Shown here: positions 24,088-56,132 of the stretch, one piece after another
How the letters are laid out: the number at the start of each line of letters is the position of its first letter
Numbering within the stretch: position 1 is the first letter of the stretch
Assembly (NCBI GenBank): GCA_013368325.1
Contig: JAACJK010000009.1
Span: 62,001 to 126,000 of the forward strand
From: Ephemerocybe angulata
Taxonomy: Eukaryota > Basidiomycota > Agaricomycetes > Agaricales > Psathyrellaceae
Direction of reading: 5' to 3'
Length of the DNA: 64,000 nt
The notes under the pieces: generated by a model
Seen by the model: the letters and a program-made list of their open reading frames with translations, nothing else
Database searches by the model: none
Told to the model about the DNA's origin: nothing
Made by a program: the position numbers and the translations under genes

Positions 24088-26983
24088 TCAGTAATACATA
24101 GATTCTGAAGAATCATCTAAGTCAGGGGAAGTGGAGGGGAGCGCGTATAAGTTGGTTGATTGTAAGGAGTGGTCATAGGCGCTGCTGTTCGAGTAGGGTG
24201 AATCGGAGCGCATACTTGCTAGAAACACAGAGGAGGTGTCAACTTTGTGAATGAGAAAATTAAGTCAGAACTAACCGGAGATGGAACCGTAATTACTCAT
24301 GTCACCAGTGCCGAACCAGGCAGCCTCGGCGACGGCAGGCTGGTCACGAATGGACGAGGTGACAAAGCGATGGTAATCATCATCGTCGTCGGAAAGCGAT
24401 AGCGAGCTGGAGGACAGACTATCTGAGTCAGAGCAATATTGGTTACCGTATCCAGCCTGGAGGGCCTCTCCCGCAGCCGACAGCATAAGAGTCCGGGGCT
24501 CCGCATCAGTGGGACTGGGTCCAGAGTTACCCCTGATGAGGCCTTCCTTGGCTAGAAAGGTCTTGATTTTATCGCGAAGGGTATCCACGTTCTGTTTCTC
24601 CTGTCGGCGCGTGTAAGTCAGGTCAACTAGGGGACAGTACTGGACATACCCTTAGCCATTCGGGGCGCTTAACGCCGAATCCGAGGCACTCGAGGCGCAG
24701 GCGATCGCAGGTCTTGCAGGTATCGCGGTCCGTGCGTTCCTCGTCACACTTCTACAAGTTACCACAGATGGTTTGAGACTTGGGCGCGGGGAATAAGGCG
24801 GGCTCTCACTGACCTTCCGTCTGATACGACAGGTGTAACAGCCGGACTTTGCCCGAACGGCACCTTTGGGCTTGGTGAAGGTGACCTTCTTGGACCGAGA
24901 GACTTTCTGGACTTTAGGCAGCCTTGAAGAAGCTGTTCCGTGGTTTCTAGACTGAACCGTTTCATTTGCATTGAAGGATCCGCCGGGAAGCGGAGGATAA
25001 AGAGTATCCTTGAGCTCCAGCGACAATTCGATATTGCTCCCGATTAACGAAGAACCTTCCGCAGGCCCGAGAAAAGCAACACCTCGGTTCACGTTTGAGT
25101 TTTCAATCTGTGGGCGAGAGTCTTGTGAAGTTCCGTACCTTGCTGAATATGAACGACAGGAAGGCTTTGGCTAGTGTGATTCTCGGCAATGGAGAGCCAG
25201 TCGTCGTCGTGACTCAAGGCAAATGGACTTCCTGTCTAGAATCCAAGATGGTGAGCACTGTTTCGAAAGTGGGCACAGTGATATCTCACAATTTCTAGGA
25301 GGGCCTCGTTGATGATATCACAAGGATGACAGGACTAGCGAACATCATAAGGGACATCCTAACAGCACCAATACAGCACGCAGCAATGTACTCACCGTTC
25401 CACGAGGAGATCTGGGATATTCTTGAATGTGCAAACCACGATATTTGATTCCCTCTGTTTGGTGAAAATCGTATCGACCGCCGTGTTCACTGCTCCCACC
25501 CCCAGCACCACCACTCCGGTCTGATGCGGGCGGCGGTGTACCAGGCATATCGTCTTCAGGTCCACTAGGCCCACTAGGTCTGTCGAAGCTTGGTCCGCTG
25601 GATGATCCACTCGGTCTTGGACTGCCCTGCCCGTCGCTTTCCCACGAGCTCGGATTCGTTTCCGTCATCCTCTCTCGAAATTCTCGAGAGAAGTCTAACT
25701 TAAAGCCCTCCAAAAACAAGGCCTGATCCTTCGCCCCTTTGATCTCGCTGGACCCCAACCTAGCTTCGGCAGTTCCTTTCTGTGTCCAAGCATAAAACGT
25801 TGATTCCGTTTCCGAATCGGTAGGTCGTCCGCGGGATAGATGTTCGAGCATGATAGAGTCGTTCATCGGGCGCGAAAAAGCTGCTAAACCCCAACTTTCG
25901 CTTTTAACACTGCCCGTGATGATGTAGAGCGCTTCATCGTCCTCAATATCCCGCAGGCCGTTCGAATGTGCATATATTGTCTCGGCGTGCTGAATGATGT
26001 GCTTGCGCAACGCTGTGTGATTATACAGTCGTTCGCGAATTGCCGGGGCCGTCAAGGCCAGAACGGCACCTTGAGGTTGGCCTTGGCATCCGAATTCAAA
26101 GCGTTCAATACGGCTGCGCAAATTGAACATTAACATTAAGGTAGGGGGTATAGCTATACAACTCACTCGCTCCAAGGCCTAAAGATCGTGGTGGCAGTGG
26201 GACCCTCGGCCACTGTATTCCCTTCGGCGAAGACCTGTGTTCGAACTGTTTGACGGCCTTGTGGGGCGATGTAGGTTCCAGCGTTCGAGATCTTGGCAAC
26301 GGTTTTCTGAACTTCTTCCTCGTCATCCCAGATGTTCCACAGTTTCATGAAACCATCGCCGACGCTGTAAGTCCCCACATCTCCTGGAATTACACCCTGT
26401 GGCCCTGTGAGTCCTTGCGGATCCGGTTGCCAACATGGCAGACCTCTCATCGAGTTCAACATCTTGAACACATAGACCTCTGGCGTTCTTAGCTTTTGCC
26501 AATCAACCGATTGGGTTTCAATGTCATGCAGCGAGGACTAGAACGATAAAGGCTCGTGAGACCCTCTGGATATACAGTGAATGAACAACATACCAGAGAT
26601 ATGCTCTCTTGGGACGTGGAAGGCGTAGAGATGATCATGTGGTGATCTGTGGAAGCGTCCTCGACCTCTGCAGCTGATAAAGTCTCTTGAGGCACGGTGC
26701 CTTGGGGCGCAGGCGCTTGGAGCCACGTCAGCAGGCGTGATAGTCCACTAACAATCCCGAGGCGCTGGGGTGCGAGCGTTGCTCGAGAACCACTCGAAGG
26801 CGGAATGCCAGGGATGGAACCGAAGCTCGGGTTGGCCATATGGACTCCGCCGTTGAAGTTGAATACGGGCGTGCTGCGGTGGACGTCGCCTCCAGCTACC
26901 ACGGTGTTCATCTCGTTGACCCCTACATTCTGAGCACCGCTGAATGTGCTGGGTCCTGCTGACGCATTCTTTTGGGTGGCCAT
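24088..26983 (-). CDS. Chimeric gene B1: family-B module fused to a Zn2Cys6 DNA-binding domain
   Basis: Nine exons on minus: 26594-26983, 26167-26537, 25396-26113, 25290-25334, 25139-25235, 24814-25082, 24650-24751, 24276-24591 and 24088-24218 (812 aa). Exons 1-5 (~540 aa) are the shared family-B module. Its landmarks are AGPSTFSGAQNVGVNE, WQKLRTPEVYVFKMLN, GDVGTYSVGDGFMKLWNIWD, IERFEFGCQ, DDEALYIITGS, SCHPCDIINEALLE and FALSHDDDWLSIAE. Exon 6 starts GVAFLGPAEG, then leaves the family and leads to a fungal Zn(II)2Cys6 cluster. The cluster is CYTCRIRRKKC (~622-632) and TCKTCDRLRLEC, spacing C-x2-C-x6-C-x9-C-x2-C-x6-C. NVDTLRDKIKTFLAKEGLI follows, as in basidiomycete binuclear-cluster regulators. 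All eight introns are 53-62 nt and keep frame. The zinc domain has no ATG of its own. It is probably a nuclear DNA-binding fusion; the role of the B module is unknown. Confidence 0.78.
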
Positions 26984-27751
26984 CGTAGTAGGGACTGGGA
27001 ATTTCCTGAGGCTTGTCGATATCTTCGGGCCAGTCATCTGCAATGACAACACTGGGGAAGGGGAGGGAAAGGAAGGAACCTAGGATCCATTGCACTGATA
27101 AGCCCAATAAGCTGTTAAGCTGTTAAGCAAGCGCCTTATGCCTGAAATGGATGGTCAACGGATGTACTGACCCGTTTCGCAAGTGCGCCATTTACGTGCT
27201 TTTACTCTTCTACAGCATTGAATTCCAGTCCTCTTGTCGACAGGTTTCGAAGAACACGGCGTTGTAGATCAGGAACTGCTTGGGAAATACTGGCTAACGA
27301 GTTGGCAGAGCAGAATAAGACTCGAAGAACGTCATCGTTTTCAAAATCTCAAGCTCGCTCACTGCTCAGCGCTCAGCATCGAAGCGTGGAAAACTGGCCA
27401 ACACGTGACCCCGCAAACCTTGTTTCCCGGGCGCTTAATCCAGGTTGGAGTCCTCTCTCTCTCATCCAGGGAGCCTCAGAGCTCAGCCCTCAGTAGAGTA
27501 GAGCAGGCACTATGACGAGGAAAGATTTCCATTGGAAGGCGAAGAGTTACTACGACAACTTGAAAGAAGCAAGCATCTGCCTCATCGAACCCTTCATCTC
27601 TTCCCTTCAGACTTGGCTCTATTAGACCAAGAAGATGGATCGAACATTCGTCACGGAGAAGGCGGTGCGTATAGATATGCCTGTGGCCACGTTGGGTCGT
27701 GCCGAGGGACTCTCTCCGGATCAGGAGGGTCAAAGCGCTCCCGCATCAAGG
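26984..27751. other. spacer between C1 and B1, including the B1 promoter
   Basis: It contains the GGGCGCTTAA element at 27429. Between 27500 and 27751 are decayed remains that match the 3' end of C3 (a tract like AGATGCTTGCTTCTTTCAAGTT on minus), with frameshifts. Confidence 0.5.
27429..27438 (+). promoter_or_regulatory. GGGCGCTTAA element upstream of B1
   Basis: GGGCGCTTAA lies 446 bp upstream of the B1 ATG, reading away from B1. Equivalent sites stand before B2 and B3. Confidence 0.3.
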
Positions 27752-28979
27752 TCATGAAGGTAGATGTGGAGATTTATCGACGTCGACAACGACGGAAACA
27801 GTCGAGGTGGCGGCGGAAGCCGCAGCGGTATAATTGTGATCCTCAAACTTCTTGGGACATGTAGTACACAGCGAGACCAGGAGGGCCAAGCTTGGAGATG
27901 CCAGAGAGCCCCATGCCGCTGCAGGCAGCGATGGCGGCCAACTCCTCTGTAGCAAGGTCTGGAGTCTCGGACGGGTATGAAAACGACCCCAACCTAGTGG
28001 ATCGATTCGCGCCGTCTTTGGTAGGAGCAATACCAGGGGCCGCAGAGGGATCCGACTTGGTGGATTGAATAAGTTCGGTTCCATGGTGGGGGGCAGCGAA
28101 GGTCTTGGTCTCATACTGGGTGGACCCGACTTGGTTATGCCACGAGCTGGAAGAATCCTATGTCCAGCGATAAAATAGTTGTGAAGCGGACATGAGACTC
28201 ACGGACTATACCCGACACCCCAAGCCCGCTATAGGCTGAGATGGTAGCCAACTCCTCATCCGTAATCTCAGTCTCGTCGGAAAAGAGACGAAGTTTCGAC
28301 TCGATGGGTAGAGAAAGTTCAAGAGCGTTTGTTACAATGAAAACGGTGTCGTCTTTGGATTACGAAGGTGAAGGAAAGATAATCCGGAGAGAAGCGAACA
28401 AATAGTTGGTTTGGATAGAAGGGAGTGAAAGAATCCGGGTCAGAAGCATACCTGAGCCATTGAACGAGGAATCAAGGGACCCCAAGGAACTGGATGACGA
28501 CGAGGAGGTCGAGGTCTCGCCAGGCCAGCCTTCCGTGGACGCGAGGTCGACGACGACGACGAATTGGAGACGGGATCCACGTCTTTGGTGGTGCTCAAAT
28601 CCTCGCTCATGGCAAATTCCTCAGTCTCAGACTCTTCAACGATAGGAGACATCGGCGCCCCGAATGTGTCTGCAGCAAAAAATCCCGTCGTCAGTTACCG
28701 ACACAGCTGGAAATACTATGAAAGGCCACGACAAACATGAAATGTAAACGGTCTCGACACCGCTCGATTCTTCCCTGAAGGGGATTTCCTCGCTCTCAGA
28801 CTCTTCGACGATAGGTGACATGGGCTCCCCGAACGTATCTGCAAAGTACCCGGTCGTCAGCCATCGAAAGCATATGAAACAACAACAGAAGGCGACTACG
28901 AACATGGCTGGGGACGGTGTTCGATGGCGGGAGAAGCGGCGACCCACTGAAAGTCACTGAATCCGCTTGTATAGATCAT
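27752..28979 (-). CDS. C1: cassette-associated family C gene (exon structure unresolved, may be decaying)
   Basis: I do not recognise this family; it is supported by two paralogous copies, each upstream of a B gene. In order on minus: a start MIYTSGFSDFQWVAAS, a hydrophobic MFVVAFCCCFICF, an acidic block TFGEPMSPIVEESESEE that is repeated as TFGAPMSPIVEESETEE, and a Ser-rich stretch. Then FIVTNALELSLPIES comes before two related motifs, EITDEELATISAYSGLGVSGI and DLATEELAAIAACSGMGLSGI. Introns with good CTGAC branch sites and GCAG acceptors separate the blocks. Several block-to-block frames do not connect cleanly and the last ~200 bp equivalent to C3 are frameshifted. It may therefore be a pseudogene. 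The given limits span the conserved core. Confidence 0.4.
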
Positions 28980-29611
28980 AGTTGGGGTCGATGGCAAAGG
29001 CTTGTAATGGCAAGAGGGTGGAATGATGGTCGTGATAGGTGGGCAAGAGAAGTTGGGGGAAAGGAGAGTCAGGCAGGTTTTAGATAGTGCTGGCGTTACT
29101 GAGACAGGGCGGGACATGGGATAGGGGTAAACTGGACGATGCATGGCCAAACATTTGGGAGGCCGGTGGGCGTTCTCCTCCTCTTTGTTCTAGGCAGCGC
29201 TGAGGTGGCTTCTATCAGGTGGTGGCTACGGGTTCTGGAGTTTTCATCGCGAGAGCTTTCGGTGTTTAGCGCGCACTGAGACGGTTAAAGGGTGGAAACG
29301 AAAGGGTTCCCATATTGAAGGGATTAATGGTCGCAGCCTTGAGTAGAGGTCAGCGAAGCAGATTCATTTTTGTTTCTATGTAGGATTCACGCACCATAAT
29401 CCTAGTTGAACACTAGTCTCGTCAACGCACCTCCAGTTTAAGCTTTTCGACGAGAAACGGTTGACGTAGACGCCAGGAATGGCTGACGAGAGCATGCCTC
29501 CTCAGATCAGGTTCAAGGTTAGAGAGGGTTGAGACTGAGCATTATGTAGATATAGTTTCTGGACGTTCTGGGTATCAATGGGAGGCTGCCAGCGAAATAG
29601 ACAATTGAATG
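28980..29611. other. 5' flank of C1
   Basis: A frame starting at 29150 (minus, MAMHRPVYPYP) runs into the C1 start and has a counterpart in C3 (CPVSASRALFKTCPTLLSP), so the C1 transcript may begin here. No other content is recognised. Confidence 0.4.
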
Positions 29612-29950
29612 TTATCTTTCGTAGATATTGTGACAGAAAGCGGTATTATAGAAGCTAGGATCGTTTTCAGTTGCATTTGAGCGCAAGTGAGCCATGACTT
29701 GCAGAATGATTGCTGAAGTCCTGATAGAGCGATTTGCATGTGTAGACGACCTGAAGACCGGTGAGTGCTGTTGGTTGCGGTTCACGGAGATACGAGAGGA
29801 TTTTGGCAATGATTTCTTCGGGGAAGTCCATGTTTGGCTTTCGTGCGCCCAGAAATAAGTGTAAGAAGTAGGAAAGGGCTGGAAGATGGGGGAAGGAAGC
29901 AAGGGTAGCTGGTCTGGATTCTGACGAGTTTGGAAGCGTCCATGATCCAA
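29612..29950 (-). pseudogene. F-box gene relic, truncated copy of F-box gene 4
   Basis: On minus, the leader and first ~50 codons match F-box gene 4 at 56283-56580 closely, including GGATCATGGA(C/G)GCTTCCAA and MDFPEEIIAKILSYLREPQ, TALTGLQVVYTCKSLYQDF. After GACTTCAG a small deletion shifts the frame. Homology ends near 29660. It lies right after the stop of chimera B2, just as F-box gene 4 lies right after chimera B3. Confidence 0.8.
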
Positions 29951-30105
29951 TCAACTCCTCCATCTCTGTAGAATAAATCAAAAATATATATTGTAACGGA
30001 CCAGCACGTTTGCATACAGTACAAGACATATATATCAAAGGCGGGGTAAACGAAGAACACTGGGTAGGAAGGCATGCCCGGACCAATAGCGTTGAGAAAG
30101 AAAAA

Positions 30106-32912
30106 TCACCCAGTGTTCAGAATCCACACGCCAGATTTCTTCCCTTTCTCCAAGCCAAGGAACAACGTTTTGCGGCCTAAGAAATCAACCCTTATCATTC
30201 CGCCCTCCTTCTCCGACTGGTACGCTTCCGGGTTCGAGAGCGTTTTGTACCGTCGCTCATATGCCGCCACTTCCTCCTTTCGGTCTGCATCTGACCTGAG
30301 ACGGTGGTAGTCCTGCTGTGGGACGGGCCATCTCAACTGTTCGTAGACTTGGATGAGGAGGTCTCCAACGGTAACGAAGCGCCTATTTGCTTGAGGCCAG
30401 ACATGCACCTCCCAGGATGAAGGGAGCCGAGGGAGCTGGATGGTAAGCGATGGAAGCTCCGGCGTTATTGCAGGCATGGCGAGGATGGGGGGCGAGAGGC
30501 TGCTGTGATGAAATAACGCCATCGACGGGTTGTCGACCAAGTTGTAGGCCATTGGAGGTTCCGTAGCCCGGTAAGCCAAGCACTCATGAAGGGCCTCCTC
30601 AGTGTTTTCCGTGATTTCATTCGGGGAAGCCTCAGCGTAAACGGATTTGTATTGGTATGAGTGGCTCACAAAAGGCGGCGGCGGTGTGATGAGGTCAGAG
30701 CCTGGGGTCGACGGCTGGGATGAGCTCCAACTGGAAACGGAGGCTGAAGCCCTTTCGTATAACAGTTCATTTTTGCTCCCTGTACTCGATGCGAATCGGA
30801 CTCTCTTGAGGCTGCTTCTTGCGTGGAGTGAGATATCAAAGACTAAGGGACGTTCGAACGTGCCTTTCGGAGTAGGACCTTCATTCTCGGAGCCTGGGTC
30901 ATCCAAATGGTCATCCTTGGCTTTGACTCTTGAGGGACCCACGGGGACACTTCCAAGAAGGCGAGCATCTCCTGCGTTTCCCAGATAAGCGACACCTATG
31001 TTTCGTTAGTGATAAAGTATGTGAACAGGGATTGATATTGGAGAAGTGTACCTTTGTGAAAGATGATGGCAGGAAGATTTCCGCTTGTGACGTTATCCGC
31101 GATAGAAAGCCAGTCGTCGTCGTGGCTCAAGGCAAAAGAGCTGCCCGTCTAATATGCGAAAGTCAGTAATGTTCCTTGCTACCGGCATTTACATGACTCA
31201 CAAGCTCCAAGAGGGCCTCATTGATGATGTCGCATGGGTGGCAGGACTTCCGACCACGTCGTCAGTAAGTTGTAGCACTCTTACAGGATGAAGCGCTTAC
31301 CGTTCCCCGAGGAGAGTCAGGAAAGGATTGAATATGTAAACCGGCAAGGTCGATACCTTCCGTCGGTTTAGATTCGTCCAGACCGCGATACCCGCTTCCA
31401 CCACCCTCAATACCACCATGACCCCGGTGACCTGATGGGGCTGGCGGTTCACCTGAAGAATCGCGTTCGAATCCGCCAGGTCCGCCGAAGCTCGTACCAC
31501 CACCGGAAGAATGGCCCAGGTCTGACCCCCCTTGAGCGTCGCTTCCTCGTGAGGGTGGGTTCAGTTCCTGTCGCATCCTCGCCCGAAATTCCGAGGAGAA
31601 GTCCAATTTAAAGCCCTCGAGGAACAGGGATTGATCCCAGACAGCACCGTTCGCACTGGACCCCACCCGAGCATCTGAAGTTCCCTTCTGTGTCCACGCA
31701 TAGAACATCGACTCGTCCCCCGATTGGCTGGCAAGCCCTCTGGATAGATGCTCGAGCTTGGTAGTGTCGTTCGGGGGAAACATTGGGTTTGAGAAAGCCG
31801 CAAGCCCCCAACTGTTCCCCTTGATACTTCCCGTGATGATGTAGAGTGCTTCGTCTTCTCCGATCCGCCGCAGGCTGTTTGCATGTCTATAAATTGTCTC
31901 GGCGTGGTCGACGATGTGCTGGCGTAAAGCTGTGTGGTCAAATAGCCGTTCGCGTTTGGCTGGGGAGGTCAAGGCCAGAATGGCGCCTTGGGTTTGAGAT
32001 TCACACCCAAACTCGAAGCGCTCAATATGACTGCAATAGTTCTAGATGAGTATGAACCATTGAAGGTGGCAAGAAACGTGCAGCTCACTCGGTTCCGGTC
32101 CTAAAGATTGTAGAGGCAGATGGTCCCTCTGTCACGGTGTCGCCTTGAGAAAACACAGGAGTGTGGATGACTCGACGCCCTTCCGGGGCGGCGTAAGGCT
32201 CCGTGTTCGAGGTCCTGGCGGCAGTCTTACGAATTGGTTCCTCGTCATCCCAAATGTTAAACAATTTCATGAATCCATCCCCAACGCTATAAGTCCCCAC
32301 ATCTCCTGGCACAACGCCCTCCGGTTCTGCAAGCCCTTGGGGATCTGGCTGCCAACACGGCAGACCCCTCATTATATTCAACATCCTGAACACATAGACC
32401 TCAGGTGTTCTCAACCTTTGCCAATCGACCGATCGGTTTCCGATATCTTGCAGCGAAGACTGGAATGGTCCACATCTGTGAGTCGCTCGTGGAGGGGCAA
32501 GCATTGGAACACGCACCAGGGATATACTTTCTTTCGAAGACGTAGCGGGTGTGGAGTTGGCCATCTGCGAGTCCTCTGCACCAGAACCCTCGCTCTCCAT
32601 AGCTGATGAGGTCCCTTGAGTCGAAGGATCCTGGATCCTAAGGCACTGGAGCCAAGTCAACAGACGAGACAGCCCATTGACAATGCCAAGTCGCTGGGGC
32701 GCAAGCGTTCCTCGAGGATCTCGCAGAATCGGAACGCCAGAGATGGGACCGAAGCTCGGGTCCGCCATATGCACTGGGCCATTAAAGTTGAATACGGGGG
32801 CGTTACGGTGTGCGTCCCTTCCAGCTACCACGCTGTGGATCTCGTTGACGCCAACGTGCTGGGCACCGCTCAACGTGCTGGGCCCTGCTGATGCATTGTT
32901 TGCGTTGGACAT
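30106..32912 (-). CDS. Chimeric gene B2: family-B module fused to a DUF6699 domain
   Basis: Six exons on minus: 32517-32912, 32089-32459, 31301-32030, 31202-31246, 31052-31148 and 30106-30995 (842 aa). Exons 1-5 (~546 aa) are the family-B module. Landmarks are AGPSTLSGAQHVGVNEIHS, WQRLRTPEVYVFRMLN, GDVGTYSVGDGFMKLFNIWD, IERFEFGCE, a Gly-rich linker, SCHPCDIINEALLEL and FALSHDDDWLSIAD. Exon 6 starts GVAYLGNAGDARLLG, then reads on through SLKRVRFASSTGSK into a complete DUF6699 domain (~675-842). It includes LPSSWEVHVWPQANRRFVTV and YERRYKTL, and ends in SGVWILNTG. DUF6699 proteins are basidiomycete-specific and of unknown function. No ATG exists between the B part and the start of the DUF6699 part, so the domain can only be made as a fusion. 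The domain is very close to the stand-alone gene at 46438. Confidence 0.8.
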
Positions 32913-33419
32913 CGTGGTACCACCGAGGAAGAAGGAAACGGTGGGAATTGGCAACGAGTCAGCTGTGCAGTCCACTGACAAGTCTGAGAGCTGTTGAAAC
33001 GCCCGGTGTTCCTATATGGAACGGAATGTCAACGGAGAGTACTAACTGCAGTTCCGTTCGCCCGTCATTTACATGCTCCTATTCGATGGTGAGAGTGCAA
33101 TCAGGTCCTCTTGTCCCAGCAGCAAGTTTCATTGTGGTCACAGTCTTGTAGGTTAGGCAGCACTTGGGAGTTGAAAGGTTGAGGGACGAGAGGGAGAGAA
33201 GATGGGGATGATCAATTTCAGCGGCATGCTGTCGGCTGTCTGTCAACTTGCATCGTGGGAGAACTCGAAAACGTGCAGTGAGCCCCTATTTTCGGGCGCT
33301 TAACCAGATTGCGTGCAATGAAACACCCTTTCTTCCACCCAAGGCTTAGACCTTTTCCCTATAATGCCGCTCAATTATTCTTTTGGAAAGCAGAAATTGA
33401 CTAGTACGATAACTTGGAA
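32913..33419. other. spacer between C2 and B2 with the B2 promoter
   Basis: It aligns with the region upstream of B3: both contain a (T)CGGGCGCTTA(A/C)CC tract preceded by CCCCTATTTT. No coding is supported. Confidence 0.55.
33294..33303 (+). promoter_or_regulatory. GGGCGCTTAA element upstream of B2
   Basis: GGGCGCTTAA lies 382 bp upstream of the B2 ATG, in the same inverted relation to the gene as at B1 and B3. Confidence 0.3.
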
Positions 33420-35778: not shown

Positions 35779-36408
35779 CTATGCTGAAGTGTCCATAACC
35801 CAGACATGCGGCAGCTTGGTGGGCGTCAACCCCTGGAACGTATTCCGCCCCTGGAGGAAATCGATGCGCTTCACGCCCTTCTTCAGCTGCTTCGCCGCCG
35901 CATCGCTCGTCGCCCCACGCGTGCACCGCTGTGTATACGCCTTCGTAATACCCGCGCGCGCCTCCTCCGACACGCCATTGAATTCGGGGCCGGTCACCCC
36001 CGTGCGGAGGTTGGCGTAGATGCCCGCAAGGACGTCAGAGACGGTGACGACGCCCCCGCGCTCCGCGTTATTGTAGATGATAAGCCGCCACGGCAGGCTG
36101 GGTATGATGATCTCCAGGTAGGGCAAAGCCGGCCCCGTTGCTGGTTGTGTGAGCGCGTACTGCGACAGCTTCGGGTCGCGGATGGTCGCAGCCGAAGACG
36201 GCAGCGAGACGTCGAAGTCGAGCTGGATGTTGAGGCTGGGAGCGAGCACGGGGTGCACGTAGCACGGGCCCGCTACCGAAGGGAGCGCGATGCCGGCTGC
36301 TTGTGGTGGGGTGATTGGGCCGGTGCTCGAGGGCAGCGACGAGATGGTCCAGGACGGCGACGGTGTGTCGAGCCCGGGGTCGGCAAAGTGTACGTGCTTG
36401 CCTGGCAT
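35779..36408 (-). CDS. DUF6699 protein (gene D2)
   Basis: One exon of 209 aa on minus. It opens MPGKHVHFADPGLDTPSPSW, the basic KxVHF motif with which DUF6699 proteins often start, followed by a Ser/Pro-rich linker. The domain (~70-205) has HPVLAPSLNIQLDFDVS, PATGPALPYLEIIIPSLPW, VVTVSDVLAGIYANLR, and KGVKRIDFLQGRNTFQGL, and ends VWVMDTSA. The family is of unknown function and largely confined to Basidiomycota. A TATA box is 94 bp upstream. The long plus-strand frame 35806-36519 is its antisense shadow. Confidence 0.82.
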   Translation of the reverse strand: MPGKHVHFADPGLDTPSPSWTISSLPSSTGPITPPQAAGIALPSVAGPCYVHPVLAPSLNIQLDFDVSLPSSAATIRDPKLSQYALTQPATGPALPYLEIIIPSLPWRLIIYNNAERGGVVTVSDVLAGIYANLRTGVTGPEFNGVSEEARAGITKAYTQRCTRGATSDAAAKQLKKGVKRIDFLQGRNTFQGLTPTKLPHVWVMDTSA

Positions 36409-38349: not shown

Positions 38350-39171
38350 ATGTCTCGTGCATCCGTCACGCCTCCGAGAGGCGTCCGCTTCTGCCATGAA
38401 GACACCATCATTCCGACGGTTCTGGGCCAAGCGCCTCGGAGTACGCCCACCCCCTCACCCACACTCTCCACCTCAACGCTCGAGTCCCCTCCCCTCTCAA
38501 GCCCCCTCTCCCTCTCCCCCCACCGTCTCCCGCTAACCGTCGGCGTCGCCAACAACGGGGACGCCACCGCGAGCCCAACAAGCTGCGCCCGCCTCCCCAG
38601 TCCAACGTCTCCCACTTCCCCAAACGGCGCTGGCTTCGGCCTCGGCGGGGGCGCGCCCTGCATCGCGCTCGACCCCGCGCTGCAAGTCCCAGGCGCGACG
38701 AAGCTCCCGCCCTTCGTGTGGGACATGATGCGCGACCCGCAGGGCCCGCACGCCATAGTCCCCGTGCTACCCCGCGCGACGCTCGAGCGGCCGGCTGTCA
38801 CGCCCCCGCTGGAGCAGATGACGATCGCCGTGATGCCTCTGAGCGACGTGCACCCGCCGTGGCCGGTTGCCATTACCCCAAGTTCGTCGCCATATGTGAC
38901 AGTGCGGGATGTGCTGCAAGGCTTGTTTGTGGATCTGCAGATTGGGTTGGCGCCGGAGAATTGGAGGGTCGCGGGGGAGGCGCAGGCGAGGATACGGTTG
39001 GCGGCGGAGAGGAGGGTGGAGCGGATGAGGAAGAAGGGGGATGAGAGGAGGGATAGGCCTGAGCATGGGAGGAAGAGGTTGGATTTGCTGTTGGAGAGAT
39101 ATCGGTTTGGGGGGCTGTTGTATAATCCGAAGCTCCAGATGTGGGAGCTGAAGCTGGAGGAGCACTCGTAA
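38350..39171 (+). CDS. DUF6699 protein (gene D3), divergent member
   Basis: One exon of 273 aa. The start MSRASVTPPRGVRFCHED has the basic GVRF motif. A long Pro/Ser-rich linker (~30-100) is followed by the domain: CIALDPALQVPGATKLPPFVWDMM, LERPAVTPPLEQMTIAVMPL, PPWPVAITPSSSPYVTVRDV, LQGLFVDLQIGL and RKRLDLLLERYRFGGLLYN. The region where the others have KGVKRVDFLRGR is diverged here (HGRKRLDLLLER). Codon use is GC-rich in the linker. Both long antisense frames over this gene are shadows. The assignment rests on the shared order of blocks. Confidence 0.75.
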   Translation: MSRASVTPPRGVRFCHEDTIIPTVLGQAPRSTPTPSPTLSTSTLESPPLSSPLSLSPHRLPLTVGVANNGDATASPTSCARLPSPTSPTSPNGAGFGLGGGAPCIALDPALQVPGATKLPPFVWDMMRDPQGPHAIVPVLPRATLERPAVTPPLEQMTIAVMPLSDVHPPWPVAITPSSSPYVTVRDVLQGLFVDLQIGLAPENWRVAGEAQARIRLAAERRVERMRKKGDERRDRPEHGRKRLDLLLERYRFGGLLYNPKLQMWELKLEEHS

Positions 39172-42100: not shown

Positions 42101-42839
42101 CATTTTGAAACGCTTTGATAGATGGATCATCGACCCACCTTCGTAGACCCCAAGGGAGACGCCAGCCCTCTGTAACTGCGGCCGGCGTGGTTGGATGTGT
42201 CTATATCTATCAGCCATCCGCGCATCTGCATCTGCGGAATTCGCCACTGGTGTGTTCTCGTTCACTTTGGCTTTTGGAATCCGGATGGACCAGGATAGAT
42301 GCGGGGAGGAGGACGCGACATGCCCGGCTGCATCGCGTTGCCGCGAAGACCATCGAGATTCACGTTCACCTGGGGACAGCGCCCAGCCTGCTGCGTTGGA
42401 GTCTTGGAGATAGGGAGATAGGGATGCCATACATACATGCTGGCGTGTGCCATCCTCATTGGCAGGTAGCTTGTCCAAGCATTGACCGAGATCTGTACCT
42501 GTTGCGGAGGTAAGTGGTTTGTTTGTTGAAACCTCTGTTGAATCAGAGCTCATTTTGGTCAGCCGCACAGCCCAAATTAGACGCCCACAATGGCCTTCGT
42601 TTGTGCCTTCGCTTCCCAGCAGATCCACGGCCATTGTCATGCCTGCCACAGCACCTGCAAGGCAGTCCAGCAGGCCGACTTCTGCGCTCAGTTTGGGCAA
42701 TTGAAATCGTTTTGGGCGGAGGGTCTGAATGGGTAACTCCGTTTGATGATGGTTGCGCGTGGGCAATTCTTGACCTTAGTTTGGTTGCCATATAAGCCCG
42801 GCTACGGCTTTCCTCCCACCCTCATCAACCACCGCAATA
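39172..42839. other. 3.7 kb without a supported gene
   Basis: A pyrimidine-rich stretch after D3 (39180-39560) is probably 3' flank. Frames at 40628-40939, 42098-42766 (minus) and 42115-42513 overlap on opposite strands and show no family motif or convincing splice pattern, so I do not call them. A palindromic GATCGATCGAT tract lies at 39870-39880 and 40080-40090. Confidence 0.45.
42789..42796 (+). promoter_or_regulatory. TATA box of DUF6699 gene D4
   Basis: CATATAAG lies 44-51 bp before the ATG at 42840, implying a very short leader. Confidence 0.5.
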
Positions 42840-43547
42840 ATGTCAAAACGCGTCCACTTTTCCTCGACGAACAGGGTCTACTCGCCCGTCCCAGGGACGC
42901 CCTCGCCCTCCGCCTCGACGTCGTCGCTGCCGTCGAGCCCGGACCTCCCAACACCGCCGCCAGAGCTCGACATCGACGACCCGTCGCAGTACCCACGCTC
43001 GCCCTACCCACACAACTTGAACTTCGACCACCTCTTCCCCGAGTTCGAGGTCGACAAGGAGATGCACGTCCATGCATGTCTGGCCTACGACCCCTTCAGC
43101 CAGCCCGCCGTCGCCCACGACCTCTCCGTGCCCATTGCCCACGTCAGGGAACAATACCCTCTATTTTCGCTGCAAGAGCCCGCCACACAGCCGCCGCTGC
43201 AGTCCCTCACCGTTATATGTCCGGACTTCCTTCCCTGGGACATCCACATCAAGTCCTCGGCCGTCCACCCCGACGCCTATGTGTCAGTCGACGACGTTGT
43301 GACCACCATCTACAAGGAGCTTCGCCTTCCGGTGCACCACATCGAATACCAGGGACTCGGCCCCGACAAGTACGCCGTGGACGCAGCGTACTTTGCGCGC
43401 CTCAGCCGCATCGAGAACCAGCAGCAGCGGGACCAGGAGGCGTCGAAGGGCGTGAAGAGGGTCGACTTCCTCCGGGGGCGCAACCGGTTCCTGGGCCTCT
43501 GCGTCACCCCGCGTGGCAACGACGTCTGGGAGCTTAACGTATCGTGA
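42840..43547 (+). CDS. DUF6699 protein (gene D4)
   Basis: One exon of 235 aa. It opens MSKRVHFSSTNRVYSPVPG with the KRVHF motif and a Ser/Pro linker. The domain is canonical: HACLAYDPFSQPAVAHDLSV, LQEPATQPPLQSLTVICP, FLPWDIHIKS, YVSVDDVVTTIYKELRLPV, AAYFARLSR, KGVKRVDFLRGRNRFLGL and DVWELNVS at the end. It is the best textbook member in the window. Other-frame translations of this GC-rich gene (such as 42743-43537) are shadows. The role is unknown. Confidence 0.87.
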   Translation: MSKRVHFSSTNRVYSPVPGTPSPSASTSSLPSSPDLPTPPPELDIDDPSQYPRSPYPHNLNFDHLFPEFEVDKEMHVHACLAYDPFSQPAVAHDLSVPIAHVREQYPLFSLQEPATQPPLQSLTVICPDFLPWDIHIKSSAVHPDAYVSVDDVVTTIYKELRLPVHHIEYQGLGPDKYAVDAAYFARLSRIENQQQRDQEASKGVKRVDFLRGRNRFLGLCVTPRGNDVWELNVS

Positions 43548-46437: not shown

Positions 46438-47301
46438 ATGACCGGATTCTTCAAGAAAAAGGTTCGGTTCTCGAGGACGAGCACAGTGCATCTCCCCGCG
46501 ACACCCCAGCTCTACCGTTCGCGCTCCGATTCCCCAGCCTCGTCGTTGGGGCCCATCACACCTCCCAGTGCCTCAATCGGCCTCCCAGGGCCCACACCGT
46601 ACGCATATGGGTACTACGGTGCACCCTACGACGGAGCCCACGCAGTCGTCCCCGGCAAATACCAAGCAGCTCCGCCCGCGCCGCCTCCGGCGAGACTGCC
46701 ATTGGCGCCCGTCCAGCCCATCCGCGTCGCGCCCAGCTCCTCCAATTCCCCACACTCATCTTCCTCACACAACTCCCGTGGCTCCTCGTCTTCTTCTTCT
46801 CAGCGGTTTGCGATACACAGGTACCTTGAATTGGCGAGCTCGCATCCCGCGATCGTGTACAATTTGCTGGACCACCCGTCGATGGCTGCAAGGCACCATT
46901 ATACGCTCTCGCCCGCTGTCCTTGCCGAGCCCGCGACGAGCCCCGCGCTCTCTTCTCTCACCGTGAAGATGCCGACCTCGCTTCCCTCCGCATGGGATTT
47001 GCAGGTCGCACCGAGGGCGAACGGCTCCTTCGTCACCCTCGGGGACGTCCTCGAGCAGCTCTACGCGCAGCTCCGCGTTAACATCAACCAGCGCGACTTT
47101 GATCACCTACGCTCCAGTGCCGAACGCAAAGAGGCTACGGCGGCGTATGAGCGTAGGTATAGAAGGTACCGTGCGCAGGACGCGTATACCAGGGAGAAGA
47201 AGGGCGGGATGAAGAGGGTCGACTTCTTGCGCGGCAAGACTGTCTTCCTTGGCCTGGGGAGGGGGAAGAGGTCTGGGGTCTGGATTCTGAACACTGGATG
47301 A
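46438..47301 (+). CDS. DUF6699 protein (gene D5), probable donor-type paralogue of the B2 fusion
   Basis: One exon of 287 aa. It starts MTGFFKKKVRFSRTSTVHLP, then a Pro/Ser-rich linker with a run of serines (~105-120). The domain includes HPAIVYNLLDHPSMAARHHY, LAEPATSPALSSLTVKMP, LPSAWDLQVAPRANGSFVTL, FDHLRSSAERKEATAAYERR, KKGGMKRVDFLRGKTVFLGL and the end SGVWILNTG. These blocks run parallel to the last exon of chimera B2 almost residue by residue, including the identical nine C-terminal residues. No other DUF6699 gene in the window shares that ending. A clear TATA box and a plain single exon suggest an active stand-alone gene. Confidence 0.87.
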   Translation: MTGFFKKKVRFSRTSTVHLPATPQLYRSRSDSPASSLGPITPPSASIGLPGPTPYAYGYYGAPYDGAHAVVPGKYQAAPPAPPPARLPLAPVQPIRVAPSSSNSPHSSSSHNSRGSSSSSSQRFAIHRYLELASSHPAIVYNLLDHPSMAARHHYTLSPAVLAEPATSPALSSLTVKMPTSLPSAWDLQVAPRANGSFVTLGDVLEQLYAQLRVNINQRDFDHLRSSAERKEATAAYERRYRRYRAQDAYTREKKGGMKRVDFLRGKTVFLGLGRGKRSGVWILNTG

Positions 47302-48237
47302 TGAGGCGCGCTGGACGCTACCTCACTCGACTGTGTTTTGGAGACATTCCTCAGAATCCTCTCTTGACGGACTTCACCGGATATCCGACTCCTTTCTTGG
47401 GTTTCGACGCTCGACGGACTCGACGGGCAGGGCCACCACCACCCTATCTCACTGCTGCAGCCGCATCCCTTCCCAATACGCCATCACCAGCCCCTGTGGC
47501 ACGCATCATCTTATCTTCGGCGCTTCTTCTGTGGTGTGGTAACCTTACAGATAGCGTTGAGGCGTTTGTTTTAGGCTCAACCAGCGGACTTTGGTGGCCA
47601 TAACCCCCGCCGCGTTTCTCTCACCCCTTTCCCCATGGCTTCGTCCCCCTCTGCCGAGTCACGCGTCGTTCTATGCATCCTTTCTTGGCTATGGACACTG
47701 GAATCATTCATGCCAGCTTCGCTTCGACGAGTTTGAAGGTCGCATCTCCCGCGTTCCCTATGCTTCCTACCACCCCCGTCGCGGCTCAACCGGCACTTTC
47801 ACCGGGGCGCCTCCTATACCATACCCATGCCCATGCTCCTACTATGGCGCGTATAGCCCCTAGTACTATTAGTGCTTGTTATCTCTGGGGCCACGATTTT
47901 ATGTAGTCTTTGCCCACGATTCAGATCTGGTTCCGCTTCTATCTAGTTCAAGCAGGACCTGTCATATCTCTGGACGGGGTTTTCCTCGGTTTAGTATTCC
48001 ATACATACGTAAACTTGGTTCCCCGAGTCACTTCTCTACTTCATCCAGAGCTGTCTGCAGTTCATTTACTGCCCTGCAGACTCTCTTTATTCATGACATA
48101 CTCCAATACGTACATTATCGACGCCCACTTTACGATTTTACGACCACTAGCTACGATTCTCCAATGCCAAATTCACGTTTTAATGTTAACAACTCAAGTC
48201 TCGATCAACTCAGAAATAACAACATACTAGTAAGTGA
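47302..48237. other. spacer between convergent genes D5 and F-box gene 3
   Basis: T/C-rich 3' flanks only; no coding is supported. Confidence 0.55.
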
Positions 48238-50292: not shown

Positions 50293-51064
50293 TTGGGAAC
50301 CCGATTGTGTGAGGGTACGAGGTGAAGGGGAGTGTACAGCCAGTATGTGAGGCCAACATCGCGTTGTCCTGATTGAATGGTGAGCGGTGCAGTTTAAGCG
50401 CCCATTGGGTCGGCCAGACTCCCAGAGTGCCCGAGCGTGTGAATTGCGCAATTCTCACGATCAACTCCTCTCACTGACCGACATCGAGTCAACTTTGATT
50501 TTGACCAGCCGTTATAGCCTCGGACTATCGAGGGAGGTACCCATGACGGCAGAAGGTGACGGCTTACTGGGGACTTGTCTGGTGGGCTTGACGAGGTTTA
50601 CAACGATCTGCATCTTATAGACAGGTGTAACGATACTGGTGAGCCTTCTGAATGTACTCGAAGAGGAGCGTGCTAAAAACGATCCTAGCTTACTGCTTTT
50701 ACATAATGCTCAGTCTCGGCCCTTTCTAACCCTGCTCTGAGGAGGCATGCTCTCGTCAGCCAGGCTGGTCTGAAACCCTCCCTGGCGTCTACGGCCAATT
50801 GTTTCTGGTCGAAAAGCTTAAACTAGAGGTGTGTTGACTAGACTAGTGTTCTACTAGGCTTGTGGTGCGTGAATGTGCTTAGCTGTCCTCGACCTCAATC
50901 CCTTCAAGATGGAAACCAATTACCCTGGACTTTCGATTTCACCCTTTACCCATCTCAATGCACACTAAACACCGAAAGCTCTTGCGACGTAAACACCAGA
51001 ATTAGCAGCCACCACCTGCCGGAAGCCAGCTCAGCACTTCCCAGAACGAGGAGGAGAACGCCCA
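50293..51064. other. spacer between divergent F-box gene 3 and C3
   Basis: The F-box promoter element is at 50392. The rest shows nothing recognisable apart from a GTGTTGACTAGACTAGTGTT tract. Confidence 0.5.
50392..50403 (-). promoter_or_regulatory. GGGCGCTTAAAC upstream element of F-box gene 3
   Basis: The minus strand reads GGGCGCTTAAAC, 100-111 bp before the ATG at 50292. It is identical to the site before NACHT genes 1 and 2 although the genes are unrelated. Confidence 0.45.
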
Positions 51065-52652
51065 ATGGCCTCCCAAATGTTTGGGCATGCCTCCACTTTA
51101 CCCCTGCGCCTTGTTTGCCCTGTCTCAGCATCGCGAGCACTGTTTAAAACCTGCCCGACTCTCCTTTCCCCAACTTCTCTTGCCCACCTACCACGAGCAT
51201 CGTTGTACACGCTTGCCATCGCAACGCCCAGAAGCCTTTTGCCATCGACTCCGGGCATGACCTTTACGAATGTGTTCAGTAATTCCCAGTGGATCGCCGC
51301 CGCTCCCACACCGCCCCCAGCCATGTTCGTAGTCGCCTTTCGCTGTGGTTTCATATGCTTTGATCGCTGACGACGAGGTCCTTTGCAGATACATTCGGGG
51401 CACCTATCGTCGTCGTCGGTCGAAGAGTCTGAGAGCGAGGAATTCTATCTGCGCGAAGAATCGAGCGGTATCGACGCCGTTTACATTCCATGTTCGTCGT
51501 CGCATCCCATGTTGTTTCCAATTGTGTCGGTAACTGACGACGGGATTGTCTGCAGACACATTCGGGGCGCCGATGTCGCCTATCGTTGAAGAGTCTGAGA
51601 CCGAGGAATCTTCCACAAGCGAGGATTTGAGCATTACCAAAGACGTGGATCCCGTCTTCGACTCTCGCGTCCACAGAAGACTGGCCTGACGAGACTTCGA
51701 TCTCCACATCGCCGTCCAGTACCTCAGCGTCCCTTGACTCCTCGTTCTGCGGCTTAGGTATGCTTCTAACTCGGATTATTTCACTCACTTCTATCCAAAC
51801 CAACTGTTCGTCCACTTCTCTTCGGATTGTCCCCCCCTTCTCTTTCGTAATCCGAAGACGACTCCGCTTTCATTGTAACAAACGCTTTCGAGCTTTCTCT
51901 GTCCATCGAGTCCAAACTTCGTCTCTTTTCCGACGAGACATCAGAGATTACGGACGAGGAATTTGCTGCCATAGTCTATAGTGGGCTTGGGTGTCTGGGA
52001 TAGTCCGTGGGTCTCATATCCGCTTCACAGCTATCTTATCGCTGAACATACCATTCTTTCAGCTCGTGGCATAACCAAGTCGGGTCAGCCTCGTCCAATA
52101 TGAGACTACGACAGACTAAGACCTTCGCTGACCCCAACCATGAAACCATTGTTCAGTCGACCGCGTTCCCTGGCATTGCTCCCACCATAGAGCATCATTT
52201 TACATGTCAGTCCGAGACTCCGGAGCTTGCGACGGTGGAGTTGGCCGCCATCGCTGCTTAAAGCGACATGGGGCTTACAGGGATCGTTTATAAGTAACCC
52301 GATTCTTACCCTCGCTTGTGATACACGTGCTTATTGTCTCCTCCTTTCCTTAGCTCATAACAGATCCAATCTTGGCCCTCCGAGTCTCGATGGACACATG
52401 TCCAAGCAGTGCCAGGATCCCAGCTATAGCACTGCGGGTTACCTCGCCACCTCGACTATCACCGTCGTTGTAGACGTCAAAAGAACCCCCTCCCAGGCGT
52501 TTACGTCGGCCTTCACGTCCCTGACGCACGAATGCTTTGAAATTCCCGATCTAGAGAAGACACCCACCCTCTTTTCGACTCGGGTGAGGTCTGAAGGAAA
52601 GAGAAAGAGGGTGCCAATGAGGGAGATGCTTGCTAGTTTCAAGTTATCGTAG
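51065..52652 (+). CDS. C3: cassette-associated family C gene (exon structure unresolved)
   Basis: The plus-strand counterpart of C1 and C2, directly upstream of chimera B3. Blocks: MTFTNVFSNSQWIAAAP (ATG 51257), hydrophobic MFVVAFRCGFICF, then two tandem acidic exons that each follow a CTGACGACG...GCAG acceptor region (the second reads TFGAPMSPIVEESETEE). A Ser-rich block, EITDEEFAAIVYSGLG, a second motif PELATVELAAIAA with a stop, and a clear 3' end ITVVVDVKRTPSQAF...MLASFKLS complete the order. The frames of neighbouring blocks need introns or indels to join. At least one stop falls in the second motif, so C3 may also be eroding. The family is not recognised. Confidence 0.38.
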
Positions 52653-53147
52653 TAGTAACTTTCTACTTTCCAAAATATTCCTTTGAGCGGCATTCTGGTG
52701 AAAAGGTCTAAGCTTTGGCGGGAGAGAAAGGTATTTCATTGCACGTAACCTGGGTAAGCGCCCGAAAAATAGGGGCGCGGTGCACGTTTTCGAGTTCTCC
52801 CACGATGCAAGTTGACAGAACAGCCGACAGCATGGCGCTGAAATTGATCCTCCCCATCTTCTATCCCTCTCGTCGCTCAACCTTTCAACTCCCAAGTGCT
52901 GCTTAACCTACAAGACTGTGACCAAAATGAAACTTGCTGATGGAGCAAGGGGACGTGATTGCTCTCTCGCCATCGAATAGGAGCATGTAAATGACGGGCG
53001 AACGGAACTGCAGTTAGTACTCTCCGTTGACATTCCGTTCCAAATAGGAACACCGGGCGTTTCAACAGCTCTCAGACTTGTCAGTTGGACTGCACAGCTG
53101 ACTCGTTGCCAATTCCCACCGTTTCCCTCTTCCTTGATGCCACCACG
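52653..53147. other. spacer between C3 and B3 with the B3 promoter
   Basis: Homologous, in reverse orientation, to the spacer upstream of B2 (32913-33419), including a GAACACCGGGCGTTTCAACAG tract and the GGGCGCTTAC element. No coding. Confidence 0.6.
52754..52763 (-). promoter_or_regulatory. GGGCGCTTAC element upstream of B3
   Basis: The plus strand reads GTAAGCGCCC, 385 bp before the B3 ATG, in the same relation to the gene as at B1 and B2. Confidence 0.3.
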
Positions 53148-56132
53148 ATGTCCAGCGCGAATAATGCACCAGCAGGGCCTAGCATGTTCAAAGGTGCCCA
53201 GAATTTCGGAGTCAACGAGATCCACAGTGTGATAGCTGGAAGAGACGCACACCGTAACGCGCCCGTATTCAACTTTAATGCCCCAGTGCATATGGCGGAC
53301 CCGAGCTTCGGTCCCATCTCTGGCATTCCGATTCCGCGAGATTCTCGAGAAACGCTTGCGCCCCAGCGACTTGGCATTGTCAATGGACTGTCTCGCCTTC
53401 TGAATTGGCTCCAAGCCCTTACGATCCAGGATCCTTCGTCTCAAGTGACCTCATCAGCTATGGAGAGCGAGGATTCTGGTACAGAGGACTCGCAGATGGC
53501 CAACTCCACACCCGCTACGTCTTCGAAAGAAAGTATTTCCCTGGTGCGTGTTCCAATGCTTGCCTCCTCACGAGCGACTCACAGATATGGACCATTCTAG
53601 TCTTTGCTGCAAGATATCGAGAACCGATCGGTCGATTGGCAAAGGTTGAGAACACCTGAGGTCTATGTCTTTAGGATGCTGAATATAATGAGGGGTCTGC
53701 CGTGTTGGCAACCAGATCCCCAAGGACTCGCAGGTCCACAGGGCATTATCCCAGGGGATGTAGGCACTTATAGCGTTGGAGAGGGTTTCCTGAAGATGTG
53801 GAACATCTGGGATGTCGAGGAAACTGTTCGGAGGTCTTCCGTCGGGACCCCGAACTCGAAAATCTACTTCGCCCCGCGAGGCCGTCAGACACTCCGAACC
53901 CAAGCCTTTGCTGAAGGAGATACAGTGGCCGAGGGGCCATCTGCCGCTACTATATTCAGGCCGGGGACCGAGTGAGTTGCACACTTGTTGCTCCCCTTTA
54001 TCATTGGACACTCATCTTGAATCCCTAAGTACGATCGAGCGCTTTGAATTCGGGTGTCAAGCCCAAGGCCAAGGTGCTCTTCTGGCCTTTACGTCCCCAG
54101 CCGATCGAGAATGGTTGTACGACCGTACGGCCTTGCGCCAGCACATCATTCAGTACGCTGAGCTTATCTATACACATTCAAATGACCTACGGCGGATCGA
54201 AGATGACGAGGCGCTCTACATCATCACGGGCAGCATCAAATGCAACAAATGGGGTCTTGCAGCGTTTTCAAACCCCATGTTTCCCCCGAACGATACTATA
54301 AGGCTGGAGCATCTCTCCCGAGGAGTGTCTACGCAATCTGGAAAGGAGGCGATGTTTTATGCTTGGACTCAGAAAGGGACTGCGGAAGCAAGGGTGGGCT
54401 CGAGCCCGTACGAGGGTGTTTGGGACCAGTCGTTGTTCCTTGAAGGCTTCAAACTGGATTTTTCTCCAGAGTTTCGAGCGAGGAAGAGGCACGAACTGGA
54501 TTCGATGTCGCGGGGTAGGGATGGAGAAGGGGGCGTAGACGCGAATTTCGGTGCACCTGGTGGACGTGGAGGCGAACTTCCCGGTGAACCACCAGCTCCC
54601 TCGGGTCAGGGTGGTAATGCCGGGGGTGGTGGCGGTCCGAGCAACTTTCGCTCACCGGAGGGTATGGACCTTGACGATTTACACGTTCAGATGTTCTCTG
54701 ACTCTTCTCGTGGAACGGTGAGCACCCTATTCCACAGTACAAATTTACTGTCTAAGGACGCATTTACAAGTCTTGCCACCCATGCGACATAATCAATGAG
54801 GCCCTCTTCGAGCTTGTGAGTCATGCAGTGACAGTAGTCAGAGACCTTCCTGACATTCGCGTTCCAGATCGGCAGCCCCTTTGCGTTGTGCCACGACGAC
54901 GACTGGCTTTCCGCCATGGAGGAGAACTCAGGTCTAAACCCTCAAACTGCCATTTACATTCAAAATGGTAACAAACTATTCTTCAATACCATTGTTTACC
55001 CTCTTGCTAACTACCTTGATAAAATCCAGGTGTGGCCTTCCTTGGAAATGTAGACAATCCTCCTCGTATAGGAGATGATCCCGGCATTCGACCTATTGAC
55101 GTCCCAACTCTAATCGCGGAGAAAGGTTACAATCCCCAGACCTTCAACGTTAATCCGGGTTTCGTATGCTTGTCTCTCTATGAGGTGTGCAGCCTCGAAA
55201 CTGATATGCAATTAGGCACGCTACTTCGTCATCAAATCTTATACCGAAGCCGACGTGCACAAATCATTGAAGCACGAAATTTGGTGCTCCAGCGAGTCCG
55301 GAAATAAGCGCCTGGACAAGGCGTTCAAAGATACCAGTGGACGCGGGCCTGTATATCTGTTTTTCAGCGTCAACGGCTCTGGACACTTCTGCGGCGTGGC
55401 TGAAATGTTGACCCCGGTTGACTATACGAAAAGCAGCACCGTCTGGGATTCCGACAAGTGGAAAGGAGTGTTCAAAGTTCGGTGGATCTTCGTCAAGGAT
55501 ATTGCTTTCTCAAAGCTGAGTCACATCAAACTCAAGTACGTGTGGTTGGACTGCCGTGCGCCTTACCTTATACCTAACCGGGTGATGTGTAGCAACACTG
55601 AAAAGAGGAAGCCTGTGACCAACTCCCGAGATACGCAGGAACTGCTTCCTGCCGCTGGTCAAGAAATGCTGCAGATATTTTACGCCCATCATGATCAAAC
55701 CTCACTCTTACAGAACTATGTCTTCTTCGAGGTAAGCGCGCTGTGACATTTGTCAGTCTAGAGGTTTACGCAGTCCCACGCTTACCCCGCCCATAGATGG
55801 AAGCCATGCAGAGCCAGAAAGCTGATCCAGCCCCACCGGTTCCTATCCAAGTGATGACTCGCAACTCGTCTCTGAGTACGACTGGTAGCTTTCAAAGTGG
55901 GGCTATGGAGGAGGAGGAGGAGGAGGAGGAGGAGGAGGAGCTGCTCCAGGCGTTCAACATTTTTGCCAAGGATGATACAGGAACGCTTGGTGAGGTGGAG
56001 CTAAGGGAGGTCATGAGGAGCTTTGGGGAATTGCTGTCGGAGGAGGAGGCCAAGCAGATGATTGAAGAGGCAGATGGGGATGGGGATGGCGAGATTGATT
56101 TCGATGAATTCAAGAAAATGATGGGCCATTAA
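53148..56132 (+). CDS. Chimeric gene B3: family-B module fused to a YTH m6A-reader domain and an EF-hand tail
   Basis: Nine exons: 53148-53543, 53601-53971, 54030-54717, 54771-54815, 54868-54967, 55030-55163, 55216-55535, 55593-55731 and 55797-56132 (842 aa). Exons 1-5 are the family-B module. Exon 6 opens GVAFLGNVDNPP and moves into LIAEKGYNPQTF, the lead-in of fungal YTH proteins. YTH spans ~579-731: ARYFVIKSYTEADVH, NKRLDKAF, GPVYLFFSVNGSGHFCGVAE, WKGVFKVRWIFVKD and KPVTNSRDTQELL. The aromatic-cage tryptophans are present at 601, 655 and 660, so m6A binding is plausible. Exon 9 carries the YTH tail, 11 consecutive Glu codons (769-779) and a calmodulin C-lobe-like pair. The first loop (788-799) starts with Ala instead of Asp; the second (824-835, DGDGDGEIDFDE) is canonical. 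No start codon serves YTH alone. Confidence 0.78.
55908..55940 (+). repeat. (GAG)11 trinucleotide repeat coding for poly-Glu
   Basis: Eleven uninterrupted GAG codons join the YTH tail to the EF-hand part of chimera B3. They may mark the fusion joint and should be length-variable. Confidence 0.9.

Follow-up and report, generated by a model that had tools for sequence, protein, structure and literature searches.

The window, the whole stretch of DNA that was analysed (64 kb of the mushroom Ephemerocybe angulata, G000:C112:62001-126000, whose 58.7 Mb genome was also searched as a whole), contains three genes, B1, B2 and B3, for which fusion of a five-exon front end to differing tails is well supported. 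The genes and the features discussed below are the following:

26983-24088, minus strand: B1, whole gene, 9 exons, 815 aa
25139-26983, minus strand: B1 front end, exons 1-5 (540 codons); the whole B1 protein is identical to database protein P0002
24088-25082, minus strand: B1 exons 6-9, Zn2Cys6 DNA-binding tail (Pfam), likely donor C125:1196658-1197353
32912-30106, minus strand: B2, whole gene, 6 exons, 842 aa
31052-32912, minus strand: B2 front end, exons 1-5 (546 codons); the whole protein is P0001
31553-32423, minus strand: predicted gasdermin-like core, B2 residues ~145-415, exons 2-3 (AF2, Foldseek, VIA)
30967-31246, minus strand: conserved box HPCD..HDDDW..GVA(F/Y)L at residues 500-556 of B2 (exons 4-6), preceded by a long linker that is rich in Gly and Ser and modelled with low confidence
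30106-30995, minus strand: B2 exon 6, DUF6699 tail (Pfam match 30549-30139)
35818-36222 (minus), 38716-39123 (plus) and 43134-43511 (plus): further free-standing DUF6699 ORFs between B2 and B3
46852-47268, plus strand: free-standing DUF6699 gene, a neighbour in the window and nearest relative of the B2 tail
53148-56132, plus strand: B3, whole gene, 9 exons, 842 aa
53148-54967, plus strand: B3 front end, exons 1-5 (533 codons); 80% nucleotide identity to B2 over 52617-54911
55091-55845, plus strand: captured YTH segment of B3, with introns at the places of those in the likely donor C120:681063-681527
55852-56132, plus strand: captured EF-hand lobe of B3, related to the calmodulin-like gene C28:396013-396352
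56219-56266, plus strand: 48-bp remnant, past the stop codon of B3, of a DUF6699 exon of the B2 type, 96% identity to B2 30527-30479
56293-56579, plus strand: 3' flank common to B2 and B3, 92% identity to B2 29955-29672, continuing into an ORF that weakly matches F-box

The front ends of the three genes are 66-74% identical. Exons 2 (371 nt) and 4 (45 nt) have the same length in each of them, while exons 1 (390, 396 and 396 nt in B1, B2 and B3, respectively), 3 (718, 730 and 688 nt) and 5 (97, 97 and 100 nt) vary. The introns of the gene models are GT-AG, the one past exon 5 is in phase 1 in all three, and exon 6 starts with GVA(F/Y)LG. Remodelling returned the same coordinates and exon lengths as a preliminary description of this DNA, and the models, together with Pfam, bear out its account of five shared exons, a phase-1 intron and a common start of exon 6 followed by differing domains. 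Its statement that the captured domains lack an ATG of their own is limited here to B1 and B3, in which the first methionine past the joint is found within the domain or beyond it, because in B2 Met 695 directly precedes the DUF6699 match, which begins at residue 696.

Second gene models cover the whole protein for B1 and B2 and the front end alone for B3. The B1 model equals P0002 letter for letter (815 residues, 8 introns), and the B2 model is identical to P0001 (NCBI D9611_011135) across 842 residues. The B3 front end is present in another E. angulata strain (P0018), with one substitution until that gene model departs at residue 325. The source of P0002, P0004, P0005 and P0019 is marked 'lgn', with contigs of at most 2951-4953 bases; these are probably read assemblies, perhaps of RNA, their sizes being compatible with RNA or genomic DNA alike, and the largest P0002 contig (2951 bases) also has room for the genomic B1 gene (2896 bases). 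Because B1 and B2 match P0002 and P0001 exactly, and 13 of 22 further front-end models retain the 45-nt, phase-0 exon, the common pattern is not attributable to chance.

The B1 tail scored 20.5 bits against Pfam Zn_clus, slightly below the cut-off of 21, with all six cysteines seen by eye. Over window positions 24906-24169 it aligns with C125:1196658-1197353 (76% nucleotide identity, 756 columns) with introns at matching places, and the free gene has an ATG there that B1 lacks. The B3 tail matches YTH (163 bits) and EF-hand_7 (44 bits); its YTH part is 76% identical to the gene on C120 across 760 nucleotide columns, the likeness running from mid-exon (55091) to ~55845, and its EF-hand part resembles the calmodulin-like gene in blocks of 78-87% nucleotide identity, lacking one intron of that gene. 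The B2 tail matches DUF6699 with 88 bits, and its nearest relative found in the genome, which has 31 DUF6699 matches, lies in the window at 46666-47298 (48% amino acid identity). Of five tail parts for which free-standing paralogues were sought, four have clear ones, namely YTH, EF-hand, Zn2Cys6 and the PKA tail of a further family member described below, and the fifth, DUF6699, has a more distant one; in having resident paralogues these tails agree with integrated decoys. The putative donor sites are not among the 49 front-end matches in the genome, and these paralogues are probably donors and not recipients. Since both carry introns, the YTH and Zn2Cys6 pieces were transferred as genomic DNA. 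Exon shuffling at the intron between exons 5 and 6 was considered for B1 and B3 and rejected, because similarity to the likely donors begins within exon 6 (~24906 and ~55091), downstream of GVAFLG.

Pairwise dN/dS (Nei-Gojobori) is 0.15-0.16 among the cores of B1-B3, 0.10 between the B3 YTH part and its free gene (177 codons) and 0.26 between the B1 Zn2Cys6 part and its free gene (171 codons). With a value of about 0.5 or more as the reference for free drift on one of two equally long branches, the captured YTH and Zn2Cys6 parts look to be under constraint.

The region behind B3 retains traces of its history. A scrap of a DUF6699 exon, followed by the 3' flank of B2, stands behind the B3 stop codon, which argues for replacement of the tail; it is very likely, judging from these sequences, that a B2-type gene lost its DUF6699 tail to a YTH-EF cassette, giving B3. 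The ORF that follows (56298-58355) is F-box-like at 17.3 bits, below the cut-off of 24.3, and the start of its sequence also lies behind B2 (29955-29672). Within the first 130 codons, dS between B2 (32912-32517) and B3 (53148-53543) is 0.18 against 0.97 in the core, and gene conversion between the two genes over this part is therefore likely. Additionally, a small gene seems to have been co-duplicated with the B genes, because blocks 78-83% alike precede each of them (28713-28077, 34487-34236 and 51515-52147).

The front end is not confined to these three genes, as the B2 front end gave 49 matches in the genome, grouped into at least 25 loci, and a distant query added three weak matches outside them (C212, C38 and C149:103817). 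The 22 loci other than B1-B3 (M numbers below) were modelled with a gene finder trained on B1-B3 and mapped exons, which on its own training genes split exon 1 of B2 and shifted one splice site of B1, and whose models of M04, M05 and M06 contain short pieces that are extra or changed relative to database proteins. Six of the 25 loci were left out of the tail count, since M08, M20 and M25 run into the next gene and M10, M15 and M23 end early. A recognised domain, by Pfam or database annotation, was found in 12 of the 19 tails tested. Besides the Zn2Cys6 (B1, slightly below cut-off), DUF6699 (B2) and YTH plus EF-hand (B3) tails, database annotation gave Zn2Cys6 plus Fungal_trans for M04 (P0004), a kinase for M06 (P0019) and a homeobox for M19 (P0013). 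Pfam gave TPR-S for M09 and, in tails based on the gene finder alone, a methyltransferase (M07), a kinase-like domain (M11), a forkhead (M17), TEA (M21) and NACHT/NPHP3_N (M22). No Pfam domain was matched in the tails of M05, M12, M18, M24, M14 (as P0015) and M16 (as P0011), and the sole Pfam match of M13 is a weak MIT (19.4 bits, cut-off 30). This MIT match (P0012, G000:C18:831074) sits within the front-end linker and not behind the front end. The proteins of the family range from about 430 to 1390 aa.

Three blocks of M04, which has two extra pieces, cover the whole of P0004, a protein of 1323 residues that begins within the front end. The M06 kinase matches the solved cAMP-dependent protein kinase 1fot (E 2.4e-123), and a free-standing copy of it lies upstream (C115:898071-899292), 80-87% identical in the main exons and less so at the ends. 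Two PKA-like catalytic genes lie near each other at G000:C115:893015-899292, one free and one fused to a front end (M06). M25, a Coprinopsis/Laccaria-type copy (L040, G000:C117:3104500-3113000), directly precedes a long ORF that looks tuberin-like by eye. Caspase-like tails suspected by eye in P0023 and P0015 were discarded, as Pfam found none and the best PDB metacaspase match had an E of 0.98.

Three homologue searches, each scoring the ~8000 candidates with most words in common, returned overlapping lists of 17, 21 and 30 proteins from Ephemerocybe, Coprinellus, Candolleomyces, Coprinopsis, Laccaria and Phlegmacium, and also from Hebeloma, Pholiota, Gymnopilus, Gymnopus, Armillaria and others. 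Their tails include C2H2 in Coprinopsis cinerea, DUF6699 with an AreA GATA-like domain in Laccaria bicolor, HSF in two homologues of Phlegmacium glaucopus, Fungal_trans in Candolleomyces and forkhead plus MIT in P0009; many homologues, some of them fragments, have no recognised tail. There is thus no single constant C-terminus in the genome or in the other mushrooms, which favours capture.

A tree of 66 cores (264 columns; 16 of 82 rows left out as duplicates or poor) pairs M06 (kinase) with M21 (TEA) and M04 with M05, and the cores of M09 (TPR) and M14 (tail without a Pfam match) are 95.0% identical, their tails being unrelated. The tailed members from Laccaria, Phlegmacium and Coprinopsis sit among relatives without a recognised tail. 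The grouping of B2 with B3 has a support of 0.19, too low to place B1, B2 and B3 in order. Because sister cores carry different tails, tails must have been gained or exchanged many times, and different domains in close paralogues, a further mark of integrated decoys, occur in B1/B2/B3, M09/M14, M06/M21 and M04/M05. The serial domain capture first suggested for B1-B3 is strongly supported by paralogues with common intron positions, breakpoints within exons, the leftover tail and the near-identical front ends with unrelated tails in the tree, and repeated capture of tails by the front end is well supported for the family.

Structure prediction gives the core of the front end a gasdermin-like fold. 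The AF2 model of the B2 core has a pLDDT mostly of ~90, and gasdermins were the top fold matches (Foldseek, VIA) for two AlphaFold models of the front end, including the RCD-1 structures 8jyy, 8jyx and 8jyz and the mammalian gasdermin 6cb8 (Foldseek E 1e-4). At the level of sequence, 57 members matched 18 Pfam families, none of them gasdermin, PF04598 gave no match in the genome at E <= 10 (a profile that may not catch known fungal gasdermins), and profile searches of PDB sequences (A3, A4) returned no gasdermin. PADLOC, run on 50 members, gave 36 families; the 25 listed were each matched by one member, and none was named as gasdermin. In a six-frame, exon-by-exon protease search limited to the best candidates, no CHAT, S8 or C14 match among those listed lay less than 10 kb from any of the 25 loci, the nearest being a C14 at 15.4 kb from M14. 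CHAT matches are greatly expanded across the genome (97, some of them within one gene).

Pfam found no NB-ARC or NACHT domain in B1-B3; three closely similar NACHT (NPHP3_N) ORFs lie elsewhere in the window, at 1183-2514 (plus), 4020-5657 (plus) and 13190-14824 (minus). Residues ~10-45 of B1-B3 contain a conserved motif, GA....V....AG(G/R)D...FNFN, which recalls the amyloid-like motif of basidiomycete NLRs as it appears in the available part of PMC9815663. A search for this motif in all window ORFs of at least 25 aa gave nothing below E 0.76 outside B1-B3.

Here it is tentatively proposed, as the best single explanation though one short of an even chance, that these genes encode a gasdermin-like pore former joined to tails, several of which probably derive from regulatory genes of the fungus itself; the tails would act as baits restraining the pore until disturbed. 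The predicted fold makes the integrated-decoy idea more plausible, because it points to an executioner rather than a classical receptor. The core would insert into the membrane and kill the cell, and the box and the tail may occupy the position that a C-terminal repressor has in other gasdermins. The core would be released when the tail is bound, modified or cleaved, or when the linker is cut, the disturbance coming perhaps from a parasite or a foreign nucleus. Tails would be exchanged by ectopic recombination between clustered copies, and frequent exchange would be expected because baits lose their value as attackers change, which fits the observed pattern.

The main rival, a doubtful one but the strongest of those considered, is that the proteins are chimeric regulators, in which the front end serves for sensing, tethering or oligomerisation and places different outputs under one control, with no cell death involved. 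Many tails are indeed outputs (Zn2Cys6, C2H2, HSF, forkhead, homeobox, TEA, kinase, YTH), dN/dS values of 0.10 and 0.26 suggest constraint on the captured parts, the M06 kinase closely matches 1fot, and three output tails inspected by eye seem intact. However, the fold predicted for the front end belongs to pore formers, a pure regulator does not account for the TPR, NACHT and DUF6699 tails or for the many members in which no tail is recognised, and turnover of tails on near-identical front ends (M09/M14, cores 95%) was judged unusual for regulators.

Neutral churn appears unlikely. Under it, a five-exon front end in a recombining and duplicating region takes up gene fragments, and most chimeras have no selected function. 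The patchy likeness of B2 and B3 (dS 0.18 in the first 130 codons, 0.97 in the core), their leftover tail and co-duplicated flanks, and the relation of the M06 tail to a nearby gene are in line with such a process. However, the joints of B1-B3 preserve frame and phase, dN/dS is below the ~0.5 expected with one of two equal branches drifting, uninterrupted spliced proteins are found again for B1 and, from exon 2 onward, for M04, and fusions of like kind are present in Coprinopsis, Laccaria and Phlegmacium. That gene models merged separate adjacent genes into front ends with tails is very improbable, for although some automatic models of the family seem to be fused or truncated (P0023, P0018) and M08, M20 and M25 ran into the following gene, B1 and B3 have no start codon ahead of the domain, B1 (8 introns) and M04 (1323 residues) agree with independently derived 'lgn' proteins (RNA or genomic DNA), and the likeness to donors begins inside exon 6 and continues in frame.

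Returning to the bait-and-pore explanation, its fuller form, held with still more reserve, is that mushrooms have executioners of gasdermin type that unite bait and pore in a single molecule: duplicates of a resident kinase, an RNA reader and transcription factors would take the place of the C-terminal repressor, an attack on a guarded regulator would set off the pore with neither a receptor nor a separate protease in between, and recombination would swap the baits. What is gained is a testable question, namely what it is that executioners of cell death in mushrooms perceive. If they are indeed baits, the tails name the host pathways attacked by parasites or rival nuclei (PKA, m6A reading, DUF6699, homeobox and others). 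Should they prove to be something else, the family still documents domain capture in nature, with the front end, likely donors, breakpoints and the scrap of a replaced tail all legible. No description of the family, or of gasdermins with captured domains, was found in the literature covered, most subscription journals lying outside that coverage.

In gasdermins the N-terminal domain makes pores and the C-terminal part usually restrains it until cut off, according to the accessible parts of PMC10197012 and PMC12881547. The family resembles RCD-1 of Neurospora crassa and HET-Q1 of Podospora anserina in its predicted core fold (RCD-1 structures) and in being a large, fast-changing fungal family. 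From what is available of PMC12881547, PMC10989679 and PMC10197012, RCD-1 has 244-257 aa, HET-Q1 sheds only ~5 kDa at its C-terminus, and ~80% of the gasdermin genes in fungi lie in a cluster with a protease gene; the present proteins, in contrast, are far longer, many with captured domains, and have neither a gasdermin sequence match nor a listed protease match nearby. Because the sequence and protease-pairing marks are lacking and the fold comes from models, the front end likely works like a gasdermin and is not a proven one. With mammalian gasdermins (GSDMD, GSDMA3), the predicted core has a fold match and the order of pore domain, linker and C-terminal part is the same; the mammalian repressor, however, is a large helical family-wide domain (PMC10989679, in part), whereas here the C-terminal part is swapped among paralogues.

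Among the NLRs of Sordariales, a C-terminal kinase similar to the resident CHK-2 has been proposed as a decoy, in the portion of PMC12258605 available. The similarity of a C-terminal kinase to a resident gene is shared with the present family; those putative decoys, in contrast, are on NACHT NLRs of Ascomycota, and here the front end is gasdermin-like, the hosts are mushrooms and there are at least 10 kinds of tail. A parallel in design is with plant NLRs carrying integrated domains, such as RRS1 with WRKY, where a conserved part is likewise fused repeatedly to host-like domains; the available part of PMC9528084 lists kinases, transcription-factor and zinc-finger domains resembling host proteins. 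Unlike these, the front end is not an NLR (a NACHT tail occurs in one of the 19 tested, M22), and the integrated domain is joined to the predicted pore former itself. Bait tails, if true, would parallel what integrated domains revealed for plant NLRs.
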